A stretch of 46,904 nucleotides of DNA from an uncultured Spirochaetaceae bacterium. Its GTDB lineage: Bacteria; Spirochaetota; Spirochaetia; Sphaerochaetales; Sphaerochaetaceae. The notes under the pieces were generated by a model, which was not told where the DNA came from, searched no databases, and saw only the letters and a program-made list of their open reading frames with translations. The stretch covers positions 1 through 46,904 of the forward strand of contig CALXLH010000034.1 in the NCBI GenBank assembly GCA_944389145.1, written 5' to 3'. Every line of letters begins with the position of its first letter. The first letter of the stretch is position 1. The position numbers were made by a program, and so were the translations under genes. Shown here in pieces: positions 35,494 through 45,201 of the stretch.

Positions 35494-37185
35494 ATGGAGA
35501 GCGTGCAGGGAATAACCCTTGCCCGTGCTATATCCGTAAGCCCTGCGAAGATAGAGAAGATCCTCGCAGGAGAGGAGGAGCCGAACGCGCGCCTGATCGC
35601 GAAGATCGCCGCGTATTTCTTCATTCCCGTGGATATCATCACGGATGATGCGAAGGAGCTGCCCGATTTCGACACGCTGCAGCTTGACGAGGACCTGCTA
35701 TCGATCCAGCGTAATGATATTGCGAACGACATAGAGAGGGAGAGGCAGAGGCACTTCTTCTCACGCAACTGGCGCATGATCGGCTACCGCAAGCGCGTGA
35801 AGCTCGTGCTTTCCGTGCTGCTTATCGCCGTGCCTCTCATCGCGTACATCCTCTACTGCGGCTCAGAGGTCGCATACGAGCGCTTCGATGACCAGAGGAA
35901 GTACCGCATCGGCAGCGATGGCCTCGATTATGATATCTACGATCCCATCCAGAAGAAGTACCACGATGATCTGGAAGGCACCTCGAAGGCCAATAATCCC
36001 GATGCGTACTACACCGAGGTCAAGGTCGGAGTCGTGCTGGAGAAGATAAAGAACATCGATGCCTCCACCTCCCATTACGAGGCGAGGATGCAGCTCTACT
36101 TCAAGTTCGACAAGGATGAGTTCAGGGAGATGTTCCGCCATTACGCGCGCAACGTGCTTGCCGATCAGATCATCAATGACTACTACTCCTCTACCGGAGA
36201 GGCGAGGCCCACGGGCGCCTTCCTCCATGACCAGTGGATTGATGAGCATCAGGCGTTCTTCGAGGAGTGGGTGGAGCTTCATGACAGCGAGTACTATCCT
36301 GGCGAGACTCCTTCCAACGTCCTTACCGACAAGGAGACGATGTTCACCATCGGCAACGGCGAGTTCGTCCCTGATTCCCTCGGTACCCTCAAGGAGCTTG
36401 AGGAGGTACAGTACTACGATGAGGAGGGCAATCTCCGCACGATGTGCTATCAGAAGATCCGCTTCAACGCCTCCTTCGAGAAGGCCTTTGACAGCGTGCG
36501 TTATCCCCTTGATTCGGTGCAGTTCAAGATGTACATCCTGCCGACGATGGATGCCGATTACATCCGCTACACGCCGGATAAGGACGTCAACTCCGATGGC
36601 GTGAGGATCAGCGGCTTCACCCCGTACTTCGGCATCACCTCCGGCTACAGGGTCATCCACGATACCGACACTGTCGATAACTTCACTCTCCGCCTCAACT
36701 ACTACTACGATGAGAATAACGATCCGGCGGTCCACTTCGAGGATTCGGTGCGCACGCAGCTTGAGATCATCGTCCGCGCCAACAGGGCCGGCGTCTCGCT
36801 CTTCCTGAAGGCGTTCATCAACCTCTTCAGCGTCGTCATCTGGATCATCATCGCCTTCTACAGCCAGAGCTATACGGGTGAGGACAGCGTAGGGATGCTC
36901 GGCACAGGACTGTTTGGTGTCATATCCTCGATGCTCGTCGGACTCTCGATGGTATCGGACGCAGGCATATTCTCCCTGATAACGATGATCAATATATTCA
37001 CGCTAGCTGTGATAATGATAATGACCTATCAGGCGATAGCCGCGAAGAGGGCGCAGGCGAGGAAGGACAAGGTGCTTATCGCATACAACGGCATTAAGCT
37101 CCGCATCCTCTTCATCATCCTCACCATCTGCACCATCGCCATGTTCCTCGTGATTCCTGCGATGGCTTATATGTGGGGTGCTTGA
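35494..37185 (+). CDS. Membrane protein with HTH-like N-terminus and large external domain
   Basis: 563 residues. The first 55 (TLARAISVSPAKIEKILAGE, then EPNARLIAKIAAYFFIPVDI) look like most of a Cro/CI-type helix-turn-helix; the first helix seems missing, although codons upstream of ATG 35494 (KIKKLAEYM) would extend it without a standard start. A membrane helix at about 108-128 is followed by a region of about 320 residues rich in Tyr, Asp and Glu, and then by four hydrophobic helices at 430-560. The external and C-terminal part resembles DUF4436 membrane proteins; this match is tentative. A membrane-bound DNA-binding protein is one reading. GGAG lies five bases before the ATG. Confidence 0.75.
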   Translation: MESVQGITLARAISVSPAKIEKILAGEEEPNARLIAKIAAYFFIPVDIITDDAKELPDFDTLQLDEDLLSIQRNDIANDIERERQRHFFSRNWRMIGYRKRVKLVLSVLLIAVPLIAYILYCGSEVAYERFDDQRKYRIGSDGLDYDIYDPIQKKYHDDLEGTSKANNPDAYYTEVKVGVVLEKIKNIDASTSHYEARMQLYFKFDKDEFREMFRHYARNVLADQIINDYYSSTGEARPTGAFLHDQWIDEHQAFFEEWVELHDSEYYPGETPSNVLTDKETMFTIGNGEFVPDSLGTLKELEEVQYYDEEGNLRTMCYQKIRFNASFEKAFDSVRYPLDSVQFKMYILPTMDADYIRYTPDKDVNSDGVRISGFTPYFGITSGYRVIHDTDTVDNFTLRLNYYYDENNDPAVHFEDSVRTQLEIIVRANRAGVSLFLKAFINLFSVVIWIIIAFYSQSYTGEDSVGMLGTGLFGVISSMLVGLSMVSDAGIFSLITMINIFTLAVIMIMTYQAIAAKRAQARKDKVLIAYNGIKLRILFIILTICTIAMFLVIPAMAYMWGA

Positions 37186-37209
37186 TAGCCCACTCTCTCA
37201 AATGACCGT

Positions 37210-37230
37210 CCCCTGCCTCACAAGCAGGGG
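37210..37230. terminator. Terminator between convergent membrane-protein and acetyltransferase genes
   Basis: Perfect 7-bp stem CCCCTGC / GCAGGGG with a 7-base loop, 25 bp after one stop and 5 bp before the other. T-richness is modest on both strands. Confidence 0.65.
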
Positions 37231-37234
37231 ATTC

Positions 37235-37690
37235 TCATTCAACGGGCTCTATCCTGTATACCGTCCACTCGCTCATCGCCCTTGCCCCGAGTCCCTTCTC
37301 ATAGAAGCCGATGGCATCCCTGTTCTCATCGAGGCACCACCACTCGATGCGGCCGCAGCCGCGCTCTGCCGCGATCGCGCGAAGGTGGTCGATCAAGGCG
37401 CGTCCATAGCCCTTTCCCCTGTACTCAGGAGCGATGTAGAGATCCTCTATGTAGAGCCCCGGACGTCCTAGGAATGTGGAGAAGTTATGGAAGAAGAGGG
37501 CGAAGCCTATCTCTCTGCCATCAAGCACGGGGAACACGACCTCGGCCATCCGCCTCTCAAAGAGATTCTTCCTCAGTATCTCCTCGGTGGCCGTGACCTC
37601 CGACAGGAGCCCCTCATAGGATGCAAGCTCCCTTATCATCGTGAGGATAAGCGGTACATCAGCCTCTACTGCGTTACGGAACCTGAGCAT
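37235..37690 (-). CDS. GNAT family N-acetyltransferase
   Basis: Acetyl-CoA-dependent transferase of 151 residues. ATG 37690 is chosen because homology begins at MLRFRNAVEADVPLI; the upstream frame lies in the previous gene. Acetyl-CoA motif A reads YIAPEYRGKGYGRALIDHL (about 97-115), followed by CGRIEWWCLDENRDAIGFYE. The WWCLDEN pattern is like spermidine/diamine or thialysine acetyltransferases of the SAT type, so a polyamine-like amine is possible but unproven. Its start lies one base after the stop of the RNA-ligase-like gene, with which it forms a two-gene operon. Confidence 0.88.
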   Translation of the reverse strand: MLRFRNAVEADVPLILTMIRELASYEGLLSEVTATEEILRKNLFERRMAEVVFPVLDGREIGFALFFHNFSTFLGRPGLYIEDLYIAPEYRGKGYGRALIDHLRAIAAERGCGRIEWWCLDENRDAIGFYEKGLGARAMSEWTVYRIEPVE

Positions 37691-37691
37691 G

Positions 37692-38204
37692 TCATGACCT
37701 ATGGAAGAGGGAGGTGTAGACCATATGGCCATCGATCCTCTCCGAGAGCATCAGATCGAATCCCGATACTGTGCATCCGATCGCTTCGATAGCACCTGCT
37801 GCCATGGAGCCGATTACCCGTCGCCCCAGCGTTATATGGGGTTTGTACCGTCTCCGCTCAAGCCTCAGTCCACGGTCCTCAAGCTCCCTGTGGAGATTCC
37901 TCTGCAATCCCATCAGCGCGCCGCTCTCCTCGGCTCCTACCCACCATGTGTCCCCGTCAGGACGGGTGAAGCATCCGATGCGGTTCATCGATATATCAAA
38001 AGGGGAGAAATCAATGGAGCGCATGGCCTCTATCGCCTTGTTGCGCTCTGCACTATCGCACTCGCCGAGGAACTCAAGGGTGAGGTGGAGGTTATCACGG
38101 GAGACGAACGAACCATGGACCGCCTTATCATGAAGAGCGTCACGTAGCTCCACGAGCCTATCCACGGTATCATCATCGAACAGCACTGCAATGAACAATC
38201 TCAT
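37692..38204 (-). CDS. thpR: 2'-5' RNA ligase family protein (ThpR-like cyclic phosphodiesterase)
   Basis: Member of the 2H phosphoesterase superfamily, 170 residues. The two catalytic motifs are H40-x-T42 in NLHLTLEFLG and H123-x-T125 in KPHITLGRR. Family members hydrolyse RNA 2',3'-cyclic phosphates and can join tRNA halves through 2'-5' bonds in vitro; the physiological role is unclear. ATG 38204 fits the family start MRLFIAVLF; no clear ribosome site, and a TTG further up (38234) could be used. A TATACC box lies about 35 bases upstream. Confidence 0.88.
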   Translation of the reverse strand: MRLFIAVLFDDDTVDRLVELRDALHDKAVHGSFVSRDNLHLTLEFLGECDSAERNKAIEAMRSIDFSPFDISMNRIGCFTRPDGDTWWVGAEESGALMGLQRNLHRELEDRGLRLERRRYKPHITLGRRVIGSMAAGAIEAIGCTVSGFDLMLSERIDGHMVYTSLFHRS

Positions 38205-38236
38205 AGGAAGATGGTAGCACGAAAGGGAGAGCAAGG

Positions 38237-38242
38237 TATAAT
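38237..38242 (+). promoter_or_regulatory. -10 box for the lipoprotein gene at 38262
   Basis: TATAAT preceded by AGG, 20 bases before the ATG and divergent from thpR. No good -35 was seen, so it may need an activator. Confidence 0.4.
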
Positions 38243-38261
38243 CAGGGAAAGGGAGGACGGT

Positions 38262-39560
38262 ATGCTCTCAAGGATTGCGGCTTTATCACTGATTATCGTG
38301 TCGATCATCTCATGCGGAGGAAACAGCACGGTCACCACCAATGAGGAGGTCATCGATATAACCACGACATCTATAACCAGGGACTATCCTATAGACAGTC
38401 TTACGGAGGTTACGCTTACCAATCTCACTCCTGGGCATCTCTATGCCATCTATCCATCAGGAAGCATCCTGCCATCAAAAGGCTCATCTGATCTGATTAA
38501 CACTCAGGGTGGTACGTTCCTCCTTACGCCGGATGTTGCGGAATTCTCATTTTCCGGTGGTGATATAGGGATAAGCGATGGAACGTTCCGTGTCTATGAA
38601 CTCCATCCGGAGGGCAGGGATATGATCATCGATGAATCCTCTGATACGCCACTCTTCATCTCTTCTGACGGCACGAAGGTATATGAGGAATACTATGAGA
38701 TCGATTTATCAGAGGTTCAGGATATAGATGCCAGCAATGTCTCTCTCTTCTCGATAAGGAACGGAAATGGCGTCTCTACTGTCTCAAGAGGCATCATCGA
38801 TGATAATGGACGTCTGTCATCAGGAGAGAACCTCATGGATCTCTCCGGACAGAAGATCGTAAGGATATTCAATCAGATCCATATCAAGGAAAGCGATGGC
38901 GATATGTCCCAAGAGCTTCGCCTTATGACACCAGAGACAATCAGTACAGGTTCCAAGCTGCAGTCTCCGGGAATGTACAGGATAGGCAGTACATCAGAGG
39001 ATATCGTGATGGAGATAGGCTGCACGACGGGCGTGACGGCCTATCAGCTGATGTCGCGCTTCCCCAATGTCCGTGATGCCCATACCGGTCTGAAGGTAGA
39101 TAGGTTCTTCCCGATCTATGCCAGCGATAGCGAGAGGAAGCTCATCGTCTATATCGGGCCTGTCAGCAATGATATCCTCTTCGAGTTCTATCTCTACGAA
39201 GGCTCCGATGGTGGTACGGCGACGATCCGTCCGATTACAGCTGAGGAGAAAGAGCTTATCCAGACCATAGGAGCTACAGGAGGGACGATATCTTCTCCTG
39301 CTGGTGAAGGAGTGCGCATCGTGCCATTCATAATTGATGGAAAAGCCTCTACAAGCGCTTCCATCTCTACGACAGCGAACGATGATACACAGATTATAAT
39401 CCGTTCCTTCTCAGATGATATGAGAGGCTATTCGCAACTATCTCTTACGAACAGCAATCCATCTCGTCCATTTCCTACGGATCATCCGTTTACGCCCACG
39501 TTAGGCTATGCGATCATCCGGGGCCCGGAGGCAGAGAGCATAACCTTGACGATAAGATAA
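38262..39560 (+). CDS. Putative lipoprotein of unknown function
   Basis: 432 residues from ATG 38262, with GGGAGGACGG in front. Signal SRIAALSLIIVSIISC has the lipobox Cys at about 18, followed by GGN. The mature protein is rich in Ser, Thr, Ile and Gly and seems to be beta-rich; I recognise no domain. Segments such as VTLTNLTPGHLYAIYPSGSI resemble fibronectin-like or pre-peptidase C-terminal beta sandwiches. It is probably anchored in the outer or inner membrane facing the periplasm or surface. Related in style, not in sequence, to the lipoproteins at 15309 and 41019. Confidence 0.8.
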   Translation: MLSRIAALSLIIVSIISCGGNSTVTTNEEVIDITTTSITRDYPIDSLTEVTLTNLTPGHLYAIYPSGSILPSKGSSDLINTQGGTFLLTPDVAEFSFSGGDIGISDGTFRVYELHPEGRDMIIDESSDTPLFISSDGTKVYEEYYEIDLSEVQDIDASNVSLFSIRNGNGVSTVSRGIIDDNGRLSSGENLMDLSGQKIVRIFNQIHIKESDGDMSQELRLMTPETISTGSKLQSPGMYRIGSTSEDIVMEIGCTTGVTAYQLMSRFPNVRDAHTGLKVDRFFPIYASDSERKLIVYIGPVSNDILFEFYLYEGSDGGTATIRPITAEEKELIQTIGATGGTISSPAGEGVRIVPFIIDGKASTSASISTTANDDTQIIIRSFSDDMRGYSQLSLTNSNPSRPFPTDHPFTPTLGYAIIRGPEAESITLTIR

Positions 39561-39617
39561 TCATCAAGATTACTTTGATGAATATCTGGGAAATCATCAA
39601 GATTACTTTGACGAATA
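39559..39617. repeat. Tandem 26-bp repeat, each with an inverted repeat, before AAA ATPase 2
   Basis: Copies at 39559-39584 and 39592-39617 differ at one base and are 33 bp apart, about three helical turns. Each contains TCATCAA-N7-TTGATGA (second copy TTGACGA). The second overlaps the -35 of the ATPase promoter, so both look like operator sites. Confidence 0.7.
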
Positions 39618-39636
39618 CGCCAGCCTCCATTAAGAT
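39608..39636 (+). promoter_or_regulatory. Promoter of AAA ATPase gene 2 (leaderless transcript likely)
   Basis: -35 TTGACG (39608-39613), 17-base spacer, -10 TAAGAT (39631-39636). The start of transcription is expected at 39643-39646, that is at the ATG itself. No ribosome site is present. Confidence 0.5.
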
Positions 39637-39645
39637 TTAGTTGAT

Positions 39646-40968
39646 ATGGATATTGCCGCGATCAAGGAAAAGATACTCTCTGATAGGGAATACATTTTCT
39701 CAAGGACATACACGGAAAGGGATTTCACCTTCAGTGAGCTGCCTGGTATGGCTGTGATAATCGTCGGTGCAAGGCGTTCCGGAAAGACCTCATGGCTTAG
39801 GGGCTATGCCCGTAAGCTTATCGATGGAGGGCTGCCTAAGGAGAAGGTCTGCTACATGAACTTCTTTGAGCGCCTTGATGGCATGACGATACCACTTGTA
39901 GAGAAGGCCTATTTCGAGCTTTATCCTGAGTTTCAGAATGACAGAGAGGTACGCTTCCTCTTTGATGAGGTCCAGAACATAGAAGGCTGGGGACCTGGCG
40001 TATCGGTCCTGATGGACAGGCATCCCTGCCATGTCATACTCACCGGCTCCTCAGCTAAGTATCTATCGACAGACATAGCCGATGAGATGAGGGGTAGGGG
40101 GCTTCCGTTCTCATTTTATCCCCTCTCGTTCCGTGAGTTCTGCCGGTTCAATGGAAAGGCTGTGGATGGAGGAGGGTATTATACGGCAACAGAGCAGAAC
40201 ACGCTCTCCAATCTCTTCTTATCCTATCTTCAGAGAGGATCATACCCTGTCCTTGCCTCCGTTGATGATGAGGCACTACGGCAGATGGTGCTGAATGATT
40301 ACTTCGACCTTGCGTATTCAAGGGATATCATAGACAGGTTCGAGGTGATGAAAGGCTCCCTCCTCAGAAGGCTCTTATTCCGCATCGTGAAGAACAGCGG
40401 AAGCCCATATACGGTCGCCCGTCTCGTCCATATGCTCAAGAGCGAGGGCTTCCCCACATCCGCGGAGCTTATCTCATCGTACATAGAGATGATCAAGGAC
40501 ACCAGGTTCATCGAGGAGGTTGATATCTATGGAACCGAGACGGAGAAGAGGAGGAATCCCAAGAAGCTATATGCCATAGATCATCAGATGGCCGTCCTCT
40601 TCCGTGAGTTTGGCTATTCAGAGGGAGTAGTCCTCGAACACGCCATCTTTTCCTCAGTTCTTAGGACAGGGCTGAAGATCAATTACTATCGTGATGAGAA
40701 TGGATATGAGACTGATTTCGTCGCCTCTGATATTTCCATGGCCCCAAAGGCCCTTGTCCAGGTCACATACAGCCTTGGAGAGAACCGAGACAGGGAGATC
40801 CGTGGCCTTAGAAGCGCAATGGCAGCATTCAATCTGAAAAGAGGGCTTATCATCACCATGGGTGAAGAAGGACACGAGGAATACGATGAAGGCTCAATCG
40901 ATATCATCAGAGGCTGGCGATTCGCCCTGAATCCAGCTGCCTTTATTGAGCATGGAGAGAAAAAGTAA
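39646..40968 (+). CDS. AAA ATPase with DUF4143 domain (2)
   Basis: 440 residues, function unknown. Walker A VGARRSGKTSW (about 40-50), Walker B VRFLFDEVQN (about 104-113), ILTGSSAKYLS, then PFSFYPLSFREFC. A winged-helix-like middle is followed by the C-terminal nuclease-like motif YETDFVAS with VQVTYSL, in which the Asp is kept, unlike in ATPase 1. The two intact copies belong to different branches of the family. No ribosome site precedes the ATG, so a leaderless message is likely. A hairpin follows the stop. Confidence 0.88.
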   Translation: MDIAAIKEKILSDREYIFSRTYTERDFTFSELPGMAVIIVGARRSGKTSWLRGYARKLIDGGLPKEKVCYMNFFERLDGMTIPLVEKAYFELYPEFQNDREVRFLFDEVQNIEGWGPGVSVLMDRHPCHVILTGSSAKYLSTDIADEMRGRGLPFSFYPLSFREFCRFNGKAVDGGGYYTATEQNTLSNLFLSYLQRGSYPVLASVDDEALRQMVLNDYFDLAYSRDIIDRFEVMKGSLLRRLLFRIVKNSGSPYTVARLVHMLKSEGFPTSAELISSYIEMIKDTRFIEEVDIYGTETEKRRNPKKLYAIDHQMAVLFREFGYSEGVVLEHAIFSSVLRTGLKINYYRDENGYETDFVASDISMAPKALVQVTYSLGENRDREIRGLRSAMAAFNLKRGLIITMGEEGHEEYDEGSIDIIRGWRFALNPAAFIEHGEKK

Positions 40969-40996
40969 GGAGCCACATCCGTGGGGATATGGCTCC
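40969..40996 (-). terminator. Terminator between ATPase 2 and the minus-strand lipoprotein
   Basis: Twelve-base arms (11 pair) GGAGCCACATCC / GGATATGGCTCC around a 4-base loop. On the minus strand it is followed by TTACTTTTTC, so it mainly ends the lipoprotein transcript. Confidence 0.65.
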
Positions 40997-41018
40997 GAAA
41001 GCACTGATTGGGTATCAA

Positions 41019-43010
41019 TCAGTTAGCGCTTGAGACAAGCGAGATTACCGGCTTTTCTCCTCTGTTGAAGACGAATTCCTGGGTTTCCTGCGTATACCTT
41101 ACTTCGTCTTCTGTTGGAGCTGAATCATAAAGCTTTATACCAGTAACAGTAGTGGTTGTTCCTTCTGTCTTTGTCGTAAACTGAATTCCCTTGGTTGCTT
41201 CTTCTGCCGTTGTTGCAGTTGTTGCCTCAGTCGCTGCTTCATCTCCTATCGTGCCCTCTCCGGAGAGAGTTACCGTTGCATCACTTCTGACTCTGACTCC
41301 TGTTCCTGTTGTACCATCAGAAAGATTGATGGTTGTTTTTCCAATACTAAACGATGTGGCTGTGAAGATATTATCTTCTACAGTATCATTTCCCTTGAAG
41401 GTAATGCTTACCGTACCGCTGGCTCTCTGATTGCTATCTCCACGATAATATTCATAATCGTTCAGATCGAGATTGAGCGTGAACCGCTTTTCAGTATCCC
41501 CTGTGATACCAATACCCGTTGTTGTGAATGACAGGCCATTGGAATCATCATCGGCTTCTGAGAATACAGCATACATGGACTTGAGGAACCTCAGTGTACC
41601 GAAATGCTGATAGAAGTACTCAGCATCCGCCTTAGCTGCAGAAACCTTAGCGAAGTTTGAATTACTATCAATTGTGAGATCTGCCCAATTTACTTCCTGT
41701 GTTTCTGTTCCATTAGAGACTGTGATTGCAATATCAGCAGCTCTTTCAGGGATACAGAGATCTGGGGAAGGAATCATGGAAACGGTACTTGCGAAATCAT
41801 CAAAGGATATGGTGTATACTCCATCATTCTTTGTAATGACCTTGAGGTTATCCACGCTTACGGTATAGATTCCCTCAAGTGAGGAGATGGACATTTGCCC
41901 TCCATCAAATTCACCCCTTCCAGGGATGATTGTGAGGGTAGCGGTACCGGACTGGATCATGTCAGCATAATCTGCTGCGTTACTTGTACCATCAGATGTT
42001 TCATCCTTAAATGCATCAAAGTAATCAAAGCTGACAGTCATCTCAATCGATACGTCATAGATATTGGCAAAGATTCCTTCAAGCTCCTTTTTGTTTTCTT
42101 CCGTCAGTGACTGCAGAGAAGAAAGGGCGGATTGGTCAGAAGTAATTACGGCAAGAAGAAGTTTTTTCAGAGTTTCATTTTCTTCTCCCCTGTATTTTAC
42201 AGATACTCCTTTCTTGCTAAGTGTTACTCCTGGTACAGAATCAATGTTATCATCAAGCCCTTCCAAACCGGCCATCATCGCTTTCATCAGCTTTTCCCTA
42301 GAAAGGTCATTGACGATATTGGATACGGCATTACGTGCCATTGTTTCCGTGAATGTCTCATCCGGTGTCGTTGTTCCAGAACCACCTCCGGGGATTTCCA
42401 CATCGGCCTTTATGTCATCAAAATCCACGGATACGTTGCCTACTGAGATGGAGGCCTCGGTTGGCTTTGAGATAGAGATGGAAGTTGCGTCATCGGCAAT
42501 TCCTACGATCATTCCGCCAACAACATTGAAGCTCGCGCTTGCCGTGCCAGATGCAGAGAACTCGAAAGCAGCAAGCTCCTTATTCTCCTTGTCAACGAAC
42601 ACGAGCGGCTTATCTTCAACGGTCTCTACCGTATAGCGTGTCCTTGATTCCGTAGCCTTTGCCGTAGAAGGGAATGTGAACCTTAGGGCGCCGGACTTGA
42701 TCTGGGAAAGCTCTGTTGCGTTCTCTTCGGTCTTGTCGCTTGTATCAAGGGCAGCACCCTTATACTCGTCGAACTCGATCGTGAATCCGTTTGCCTCTGG
42801 CGTGATGTCGAGGGCGTTATTGCTTTCCTCGAATGCTTCCACGATGAGAGATCCATAGTTTATGGCGCTCATGTAGGTGGTAGCGAGATCGGTCGCCGTT
42901 GCCTGGTCTACAGTCGGATCATCAACCTGTCCTGAATTGCTGTTGTCGCAGGCAGTGAAAGCGAAGGCCATGAGCAGGATGCTCAAGAGCGCAATCAATG
43001 TCTTTTTCAT
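41019..43010 (-). CDS. Large putative lipoprotein, Thr/Ser-rich, function unknown
   Basis: 663 residues from ATG 43010 with GGAGGAAAAAT in front; the frame to 43034 is an extension without a site. Signal KKTLIALLSILLMAFAF with lipobox FTAC. The mature protein is acidic and rich in Thr, Ser and Asp, with a Gly/Thr linker (PGGGSGTTTPDE) at about residue 220 separating an N-terminal from a larger C-terminal part. A low-complexity Ala/Thr/Glu stretch near 600 (EAATEATTATTAEEATK) resembles surface-protein spacers. Several beta-type segments follow the pattern of an index helix plus expanded strands. No known domain recognised. Base use is more AT-rich than in the neighbours. Confidence 0.82.
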   Translation of the reverse strand: MKKTLIALLSILLMAFAFTACDNSNSGQVDDPTVDQATATDLATTYMSAINYGSLIVEAFEESNNALDITPEANGFTIEFDEYKGAALDTSDKTEENATELSQIKSGALRFTFPSTAKATESRTRYTVETVEDKPLVFVDKENKELAAFEFSASGTASASFNVVGGMIVGIADDATSISISKPTEASISVGNVSVDFDDIKADVEIPGGGSGTTTPDETFTETMARNAVSNIVNDLSREKLMKAMMAGLEGLDDNIDSVPGVTLSKKGVSVKYRGEENETLKKLLLAVITSDQSALSSLQSLTEENKKELEGIFANIYDVSIEMTVSFDYFDAFKDETSDGTSNAADYADMIQSGTATLTIIPGRGEFDGGQMSISSLEGIYTVSVDNLKVITKNDGVYTISFDDFASTVSMIPSPDLCIPERAADIAITVSNGTETQEVNWADLTIDSNSNFAKVSAAKADAEYFYQHFGTLRFLKSMYAVFSEADDDSNGLSFTTTGIGITGDTEKRFTLNLDLNDYEYYRGDSNQRASGTVSITFKGNDTVEDNIFTATSFSIGKTTINLSDGTTGTGVRVRSDATVTLSGEGTIGDEAATEATTATTAEEATKGIQFTTKTEGTTTTVTGIKLYDSAPTEDEVRYTQETQEFVFNRGEKPVISLVSSAN

Positions 43011-43205
43011 ATTTTTCCTCCGGTGATCGAACACTGCATTTTATATGGCCGGCAATGGTCGATCATCATTACTTTACTGTTTATTTGAGAATTAGGAAAG
43101 CGTTATCGAACATTTTGCTATTCGTGAACATATTGCGGCGCTGAGTGTACGGTATTGGCACTTGTCAGCCTCAGCCCTTTTCATTATGCTCAGGGTAATA
43201 GCTTT

Positions 43206-43452
43206 GACGGAGAAGAGTAGCTTCTGATTCTGCCGCTGAGAGGGTGTCCACGCAAGTGGGTGAGAGACGCCTGGGGATAGGATGCGAAAACCACTCCTGA
43301 GCTGCATGGCGGAAAGTGTAGTATGTCATGCCGTTGCCCGCGTTATTGGGTTGAGAGCGTCCCCGTAAGGGGGAAGCAAGGTGGGACCGCGGAGCCTTTG
43401 CAGCTTCGTCCTTGCAAGAGCGAGGATGAGACTGGAAAGGCTTTTTCTTTTT
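43206..43452 (+). promoter_or_regulatory. T-box riboswitch of thrS (threonyl-tRNA sensing)
   Basis: The untranslated region before thrS holds the full T-box plan. Stem I begins near GACGGAGAAGAGTAG; a likely specifier codon ACC (Thr, 43290-43292) stands in GAAAACCACTCCTGAGC, followed by the expected purine. The conserved T-box AAGCAAGGTGGGACCGCGG is at 43374-43392. A long terminator (43393-43440, arms AGCCTTTGCAG and CTGGAAAGGCT with a strong inner stem) ends in CTTTTTCTTTTT. Uncharged tRNA-Thr would bind specifier and T-box bulge, favour the antiterminator and let thrS be transcribed. Confidence 0.92.
43393..43452 (+). terminator. T-box-controlled terminator before thrS
   Basis: AGCCTTTGCAG pairs with CTGGAAAGGCT, enclosing a second stem TTCGTCCTTGC / GCGAGGATGAG with loop AAGA; T-run at 43442-43452. 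Confidence 0.88.
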
Positions 43453-43464
43453 GAAGGAGAGAGT

Positions 43465-45201
43465 ATGGCTAAGGAAATGAACCTTGAGACTATCAGGCAC
43501 TCGATGGCCCATGTGATGGCTGAGGCGGTGCTTGAGATCATGCCGGAGGCCAAGATCGCGATAGGACCGTCTATCGAGAACGGCTTTTACTATGACTTCG
43601 ATCTTCCTCGTCCGCTGACGGACGCGGATCTTGAGACGATAGCGGAACACATGAAGGCTATCATCAAGTCCGGTGTTACGTTCGAGAGGAAGGAGATCTC
43701 TCGCGACGAGGCCAGGACGCTCTTCGCGGACCAGCCTTACAAGCTTGAGCTGCTGGATGCGATTCCGGAGGGTGAGACGGTATCGATCTATACCCAGGGA
43801 AAGTTCACGGATCTCTGCCGCGGACCCCATGTGGAGAGCACGAAGGATCTCTCCGCTGATGGCTTTAAGCTTCTTTCTATCGCTGGTGCGTACTGGCGCG
43901 GAAATGAGAAGAATCCGATGCTTACCCGTATCTACGGTACCGCGTGGAGGAATGGCAAGGAGCTGAGGGTATACCTCGATCATCTTGCTGATATCGAGAA
44001 GCGTGACCATAGGAAGCTTGGCAAGGAGCTTGACCTATTCTCGCTCCATGAGGAGGCTGGCCCTGGATTGGTCTACTGGCATCCCCGCGGGGCCCGCGTC
44101 CGCCAGGCGATAGAGGAGTTCTGGAGGGGCGAGCATTACAAGAACGGCTATGAGCTTGTCTATACGCCGCATGTCGGCAAGAGCTGGCTCTGGGAGACCT
44201 CAGGCCACCTCGATTTCTACAAGGACTCGATGTATCCGAAGATGGAGATGGACAAGGCTGACTACTATGCCAAGCCGATGAACTGCCCGTTCCATATCAT
44301 GATCTATAAGAACAGCAAGCACAGCTATCGCGAGCTTCCGTTCCGCTGGGCTGAACTTGGAACCGTATACAGGTATGAGAAGGCCGGAGCGCTCCATGGC
44401 CTGATGAGGGTGCGTGGGTTCACTCAGGATGATGCCCATCTCTTCGTCACGCCCGAGCAGATGGATGATGAGATCGTGGAGGTCCTCCGCTTCTCGCTCT
44501 ATATGCTCCATTCCTTCGGCTTCAATGATGTCCATGCATACATCTCCACCAAGCCGGAGAAGTCCGTCGGCCGTCAGGAAGACTGGGATGCTGCGACTGC
44601 TGCGCTGAAGAAGGCAGTCGAGAAGGAAGGCCTGAGCTATGATATCGATGAGGGCGGCGGCGCATTCTACGGTCCTAAGATCGATCTCAAGGTGAAGGAC
44701 GCTATCGGACGTGAGTGGCAGCTTTCGACCGTGCAGTTTGACTTCAACCTCCCAGAGCGCTTCGACCTGACGTTCGTCGACCGGGATGGCTCGGAGAAGA
44801 GGCCGTACATGATCCACCGCGCGCTTCTCGGTTCCATAGAGAGGTTCTTCGGTGTCCTCATCGAACACTATGCCGGGGCCTTCCCGCCATGGCTCTCGCC
44901 TGACCAGATCGCGATCATCCCCGTGGGTGAGACCGCGTTCGATTACTGCAAGGCCCTTGAGAAGAGGCTTCGCGGCGAGGGCTTCAGGGTGGCTATCGAC
45001 CTGTCGGATGACAGGCTGAATGCCAAGATCAGGAATGCCCAGAAGCTTAAGACTCCTTATATGCTGATCATCGGAGAGAAGGAGATGTCAGGGGATCTGG
45101 TGTCGGTGCGCTACCGCAGCGGCAAGCAGGTGAACGGTGTTCCTACCGCAGACTTCATCCAGGAAGTCCGTGGCGTGATAGACCGCAAGGAACAGATCTG
45201 A
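43465..45201 (+). CDS. thrS: Threonyl-tRNA synthetase without TGS domain
   Basis: Charges tRNA-Thr. ATG 43465 behind GAAGGAGAGAG gives 578 residues; E. coli ThrS has 642. The missing part is the N-terminal TGS domain: the protein starts at the editing domain, whose metal motif is H12-x-x-x-H16 (HSMAH) with C118 and H122 (CRGPH). The class II core is complete: motif 2 region MRVRGFTQDDAHLF, MNCPFH with a zinc Cys, and motif 3 near RALLGSIERF; the anticodon domain closes it (IIPVGE...). Control is by the T-box leader. The pgsA gene follows after a small GC hairpin. Confidence 0.96.
   Translation: MAKEMNLETIRHSMAHVMAEAVLEIMPEAKIAIGPSIENGFYYDFDLPRPLTDADLETIAEHMKAIIKSGVTFERKEISRDEARTLFADQPYKLELLDAIPEGETVSIYTQGKFTDLCRGPHVESTKDLSADGFKLLSIAGAYWRGNEKNPMLTRIYGTAWRNGKELRVYLDHLADIEKRDHRKLGKELDLFSLHEEAGPGLVYWHPRGARVRQAIEEFWRGEHYKNGYELVYTPHVGKSWLWETSGHLDFYKDSMYPKMEMDKADYYAKPMNCPFHIMIYKNSKHSYRELPFRWAELGTVYRYEKAGALHGLMRVRGFTQDDAHLFVTPEQMDDEIVEVLRFSLYMLHSFGFNDVHAYISTKPEKSVGRQEDWDAATAALKKAVEKEGLSYDIDEGGGAFYGPKIDLKVKDAIGREWQLSTVQFDFNLPERFDLTFVDRDGSEKRPYMIHRALLGSIERFFGVLIEHYAGAFPPWLSPDQIAIIPVGETAFDYCKALEKRLRGEGFRVAIDLSDDRLNAKIRNAQKLKTPYMLIIGEKEMSGDLVSVRYRSGKQVNGVPTADFIQEVRGVIDRKEQI

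Follow-up and report, generated by a model that had tools for sequence, protein, structure and literature searches.

A T-box leader with a threonine specifier precedes thrS in a spirochaete and in related Spirochaetia

More than 95% of T-box hits belong to Firmicutes (PMC2494555), and a survey from 2008 found no T-boxes in 6 Spirochaetes genomes (PMC2494555, Table 3). A first-pass annotation of the window, i.e. the whole 46,904-nt stretch of DNA analysed here, had described a complete T-box riboswitch at 43206-43452 in front of thrS, with ACC at 43290 as the threonine specifier and a terminator with a T-run before the gene. It placed the DNA in a probable spirochaete and stated that T-boxes were not known to be typical for this group. 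How does such a leader come to stand before a spirochaete thrS? Either the gene came together with its leader from a clostridium or T-boxes are wider in this lineage. The annotation left both ways open and proposed to decide between them by a covariance search of the region and of related genomes and by a phylogeny of ThrRS; a contig of Firmicute origin would have spoken against it. As to the absence from earlier descriptions, the annotation agrees with the survey and with our search of the open-access literature on T-boxes and spirochaetes, where no spirochaete T-box was described and a Borrelia transcriptome paper merely cites a T-box review.

The covariance search gave a significant result. 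Rfam model RF00230 matched the forward strand, on which all features described below are located, at 43195-43416 with 102.3 bits (gathering score 93) and an E-value of 1.4e-21 (cmscan). The match covers model positions 1-219 of 219, that is, the full length, and no other Rfam match in the window was over the cut-off. The genome (2.13 Mb, 95% complete) has a single T-box. The element, which extends from Stem I through the antiterminator, had thus been recognised as complete by the annotation, and its coordinates were right in general except at the 5' end, since the element begins about 11 bases earlier. Stem I lies at 43201-43302, with the conserved AGUA/GAA motifs at the base and AGAG / GGUGAGAG loops at the distal end. 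The specifier codon ACC occupies 43290-43292, exactly where it had been predicted, and coincides with the model's specifier columns. It is followed by Stem II (43305-43330), Stem IIA/B (about 43332-43352, a pseudoknot of CCC with a downstream GGG), Stem III (43360-43373) and the antiterminator (43378-43413). The latter contains the T-box sequence AAGGUGGGACCGCG at 43378-43391 with the UGGN bulge, here UGGG, at 43382-43385. Upstream, a consensus scan found one sigma-70-like promoter (TTGTCA-17-TATGCT, 43162-43190; 0.3 sites expected), whose end lies 4 bases upstream of the T-box match. A looser promoter pattern (TTGNNN, 17-18 bases, TANNNT) was present at the same distance to Stem I in all 41 T-box loci of the same genus that were checked. 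By every structural feature tested in the sequence, the window leader is an ordinary class I T-box.

Conservation of the structure was studied in 52 diverse spirochaete thrS leaders. Since long insertions in the MAFFT alignment limited RNAalifold to 22 pairs, we transferred the Rfam structure from the window sequence to the alignment and counted pairs. In this sample 82.6% of cells are paired and double changes occur in 36 of the 47 pairs. The covariation score is 0.455 as compared to 0.180 in shuffles, none of 500 reaching the observed value, and it drops to 0.20 or less once the register is slid. Most pairs of the lower part of Stem I are paired in over 90% of cells and many of them show double changes. 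Compensatory changes were seen in all 7 pairs of Stem II and in 5 of the 6 counted pairs of Stem III, while the antiterminator pairs are kept in 96-98% of cells. Complementarity of the Stem IIA/B pseudoknot (4.06) is narrowly above all 500 re-dealings of the 3' strands (maximum 4.04, mean 3.69). Thirty columns are invariant in the 52 aligned leaders, including the specifier ACC and GGUGG.ACCGCG.

For the specifier we considered all 127 T-boxes collected from the phylum, 105 before thrS and 22 before other genes. ACC was found in 105 of 105 thrS leaders and in none of the other 22, which have TAC, ATC, GTA, GTC or TTC and, in one case, an uncertain specifier. The genome encodes tRNA-Thr(GGU) on contig 8 of the assembly (G000); its discriminator base is U73 and CCA is not encoded, and the same holds for the relatives where this tRNA was found. 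The UGGG bulge of the window can pair with U73 by a G-U wobble, and UGGA, present in many relatives, makes a Watson-Crick A-U match. Several relatives have UGGU despite the kept U73, which results in a U-U mismatch. The bulge varies against a constant U73, and pairing with the discriminator is therefore not obligatory here.

The gene behind the leader, at 43465-45201, codes for a threonyl-tRNA synthetase of 578 aa, which scores 726.9 bits with NCBIfam TIGR00418 (cut-off 383.65). Pfam recognised the SAD, class II core and anticodon-binding domains in this ThrRS and no N-terminal TGS domain. To what extent this arrangement is shared was followed at three levels. A T-box match was found in 48 of 48 genomes of the window's genus and confirmed before thrS in 46; as for the other two, G043 gave only a pheS contig and one further genome was not included. 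Across the phylum, a T-box match at E<=0.001 was obtained in 72 of 393 genomes and only 26 are above the Rfam cut-off; these counts are a lower bound as few candidates were scored per genome. In the class, where the core pattern was joined with thrS positions, a T-box core lies 74-353 bases upstream of thrS in 63 of the 149 genomes having thrS, and 23 of the 40 families sampled are represented. The core was not found before thrS in 13 genomes of the Borrelia-like family, nor in 11 sampled members of family f24, which may be Treponema; two other f24 genomes (G341 and G434) do have it there. Twenty spirochaete thrS loci lacking the core showed no T-box even at E<=1. Near-universal presence in the genus and the spread over class families favour the second alternative of the annotation, i.e. 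that T-boxes are wider in the lineage.

The ThrRS tree tells more about the origin of gene and leader. Nearly all spirochaete enzymes, with or without a T-box, form one clade (SH-aLRT 99, and 100 in a smaller set), which takes in Borreliella having no T-box; the window enzyme is of the spirochaete type. The distribution of T-boxes on this tree needs a minimum of 17 changes. Such patchiness would be expected if only the leader had been borrowed by spirochaetes, once or several times, and then placed before the native thrS. A family-type leader before a very different thrS in G051 is in line with this, as it indicates that leader and gene can part. On the other side, constraining the spirochaete thrS leaders to one clade does not worsen the fit compared with the unconstrained tree (p-AU 0.65), and several leaders from the family of the window cluster with each other. 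Loss is also a simpler explanation than the same ACC leader having been recruited repeatedly to the same gene. We consider borrowing of the leader rather unlikely. At the same time, the patchy distribution and the Borrelia-like family having no T-box make a single ancestral origin less than certain.

Import of thrS and leader together from a clostridium is far less probable. It draws on the prevalence of T-boxes in Firmicutes and on the fact that clostridial thrS genes likewise bear ACC T-boxes. However, the window ThrRS groups with the spirochaetes, Borreliella included, and a clade of spirochaete and clostridial T-box ThrRS was rejected (lnL 363 lower, p-AU 1e-45). The window enzyme has no TGS domain, whereas clostridial ThrRS from Lutispora (L068) carries an extra N-terminal stretch of about 65 aa. 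Clostridial thrS leaders form a separate clade with support 100/97, which includes one leader from a Chloroflexales record. Thus the ThrRS tree, the missing TGS domain and the leader tree all speak against the first alternative of the annotation, and joint import is rejected for the window gene with the reservation that the sampled Clostridia might miss the donor.

Two loci bear on the mobility of thrS in general. The G051 locus mentioned above (L160) has a very divergent thrS with 44% identity, located on a long branch outside the spirochaete clade; its thrS may have been replaced behind the T-box, judging by these sequences. L044 comes from a MAG labelled Clostridiaceae, in which a TGS-bearing ThrRS outside the clostridial clade stands behind a T-box of 118 bits. 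It is an example of either thrS mobility or misbinning.

Does the leader of the window act on transcription or on translation? Folding revealed an intrinsic terminator at 43391-43452, with a long hairpin (43391-43444) followed by TTTTTCTTTTT, and a U-run at 43442-43452. As the annotation had it, the terminator carries its T-run before thrS, at 43442-43446 and 43448-43452, directly past the hairpin. A simple terminator scan missed this terminator in the window; the fold shows a stem broken by small internal loops. The 5' arm of the hairpin includes the 3' strand of the antiterminator, the common strand being 43405-43413 in the fold, and because of this shared strand the two structures exclude each other. 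In the terminator shape the region 43378-43452 folds with -36.0 kcal/mol, and the antiterminator region alone with -11.4 kcal/mol. The Shine-Dalgarno sequence GAAGGAG (43453-43459) and the start of thrS (43465) are located beyond the U-run, the former outside the hairpin. A hairpin and then a U-run are found in 93 of 105 spirochaete thrS leaders.

A class II T-box, acting on translation, does occur to one as an alternative since a few relatives have no U-run: in the thrS T-boxes L115 (G411) and L193 (G390) the Shine-Dalgarno sequence has the 3' antiterminator strand as its pairing partner, and by their sequence these two are probably translational T-boxes in spirochaetes. In the fold of the window leader no sequestration of the Shine-Dalgarno sequence of the class II kind was seen. 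Instead, the window has a stable terminator fold with two runs of 5 T behind it, and most spirochaete thrS leaders likewise have a hairpin and a U-run; we consider action on translation rather than on transcription very unlikely.

We are therefore left with a class I T-box of the spirochaete lineage in front of a vertically inherited, spirochaete-type thrS, where uncharged tRNA-Thr would relieve termination; we hold this reading, based on sequence comparison, to be very probably correct. RNA polymerase would start just upstream and make the leader, and Stem I would read the anticodon of tRNA-Thr via the ACC specifier. An uncharged tRNA would pair through its CCA end with the UGGG bulge and hold the antiterminator. 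This would block the overlapping terminator, so that thrS is transcribed and the level of ThrRS is raised. With charged or absent tRNA-Thr, the more stable terminator would form and transcription would stop at the U-run. We infer tRNA binding, sensing of the charging state and the direction of regulation by analogy with the T-box family. The leader would be native to the spirochaete lineage, preceding an inherited thrS across the class.

The host assignment made by the annotation stands. The window ThrRS shares 78-88% identity with records from Spirochaetota, among them that of the isolate Bullifex porci, and the ThrRS tree puts a genome of the same class with Borreliella; the source organism, as its ThrRS indicates, is a spirochaete near Bullifex and not a Firmicute. 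B. porci NM-380-WT-3C1 (L039, NZ_VUNN01000032.1) has the same leader before the orthologous thrS with 96.0 bits. In B. porci a 16S rRNA gene follows a few kilobases downstream of thrS, and in the window, which likewise ends downstream of thrS in what reads as a 16S gene start, the layout is similar. B. porci differs from the window in being a cultured isolate and its ThrRS is 78% identical in the best segment. Firmicute contamination of a spirochaete bin comes to mind because assemblies of relatives contain some T-box contigs of foreign appearance (pheS in G043), but the ThrRS identity to Spirochaetota and the T-box and 16S layout of B. porci make it next to impossible and it is rejected.

In comparison with the clostridial thrS class I T-box (RF00230), the window leader has the same structural parts, the ACC specifier, UGGN bulge, antiterminator/terminator switch and thrS as the target. 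It differs in the host phylum and in the native spirochaete thrS lacking TGS; also, most spirochaete members are under the Rfam cut-off. The sensor logic is shared with the class II translational T-boxes of Actinobacteria (PMC7778990), in contrast to which the window leader has a terminator with a U-run, and only a few spirochaete relatives look translational. What is new is the host: a known kind of T-box in a poorly recognised phylum, conserved across a class of spirochaetes. The silence of the literature is probably explained by most spirochaete T-boxes scoring under the Rfam cut-off, which suggests that the threshold hides true members outside Firmicutes. Since TBDB draws for the most part on Rfam and collections like it (PMC7778990), it may already contain some entries from spirochaetes; the Bullifex T-box, which is over the Rfam cut-off, could have been annotated automatically.

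Our results extend the known range of T-boxes by one phylum. By analogy with other T-boxes, diderm spirochaetes would gain a direct link from tRNA charging to gene expression. A class-wide set with one specifier, one target, patchy loss and both transcriptional and probably translational forms is a natural series for studying T-box retention, loss and change of mode, and cultured B. porci is among the organisms suited to testing the T-box. A broader proposition sees the T-box at thrS as an old and widespread regulatory feature of Spirochaetia which the Rfam cut-off, too high for most of its members, has kept from notice. Several lines, the Borrelia-like one among them, would have lost it, and in a few families it would have turned translational; sister Ile, Val and Tyr T-boxes in related spirochaetes would control amino acid synthesis from branched-chain or aromatic acids. 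Taken as a whole, this proposition could equally well be right or wrong.

Regarding T-boxes before other genes in related spirochaetes, those with an Ile specifier (ATC) precede a fusion of HTH, cupin and AMP-binding (acyl-CoA) ligase domains (L267, on contig 9 of G056, 36500-44700, minus strand; L168-L171 and L205). In G056 the run of genes behind the T-box consists of the ligase, a nitrilase-like hydrolase, a branched-chain aminotransferase (ilvE) and three subunits of a 2-oxoacid:ferredoxin oxidoreductase of the vor type. The ligase has MbcS as its best NCBIfam match, below the cut-off of that family, and VorB is over its cut-off. This gene content suggests that the Ile T-box controls isoleucine synthesis from a branched-chain acid by reductive carboxylation; our literature search found no paper on T-box control of such a pathway. 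In the family of the window, another HTH-cupin-AMP-binding ligase fusion has Val T-boxes (GTC/GTA) in front of it (L114, L157, L158, L163, L164 and L165), and those T-boxes that lie on small contigs in some genomes of the same genus could be foreign. The Phe (TTC) T-box L004 precedes pheS on contig 241 (3.5 kb) of G043, an assembly from the same genus, and is probably a Firmicute contaminant. In L186 (G268 contig 4) a T-box precedes trpB and the aligned specifier is TAC, not TGG, which means either misalignment or an unusual specificity. Finally, Tyr (TAC) T-boxes of family f11 (L002, L003, L111, L112, L113, L128, L172 and L173) precede an unusual combination of genes, coding for an AMP-binding ligase, a sodium:solute symporter and an enzyme resembling tryptophanase/tyrosine phenol-lyase.
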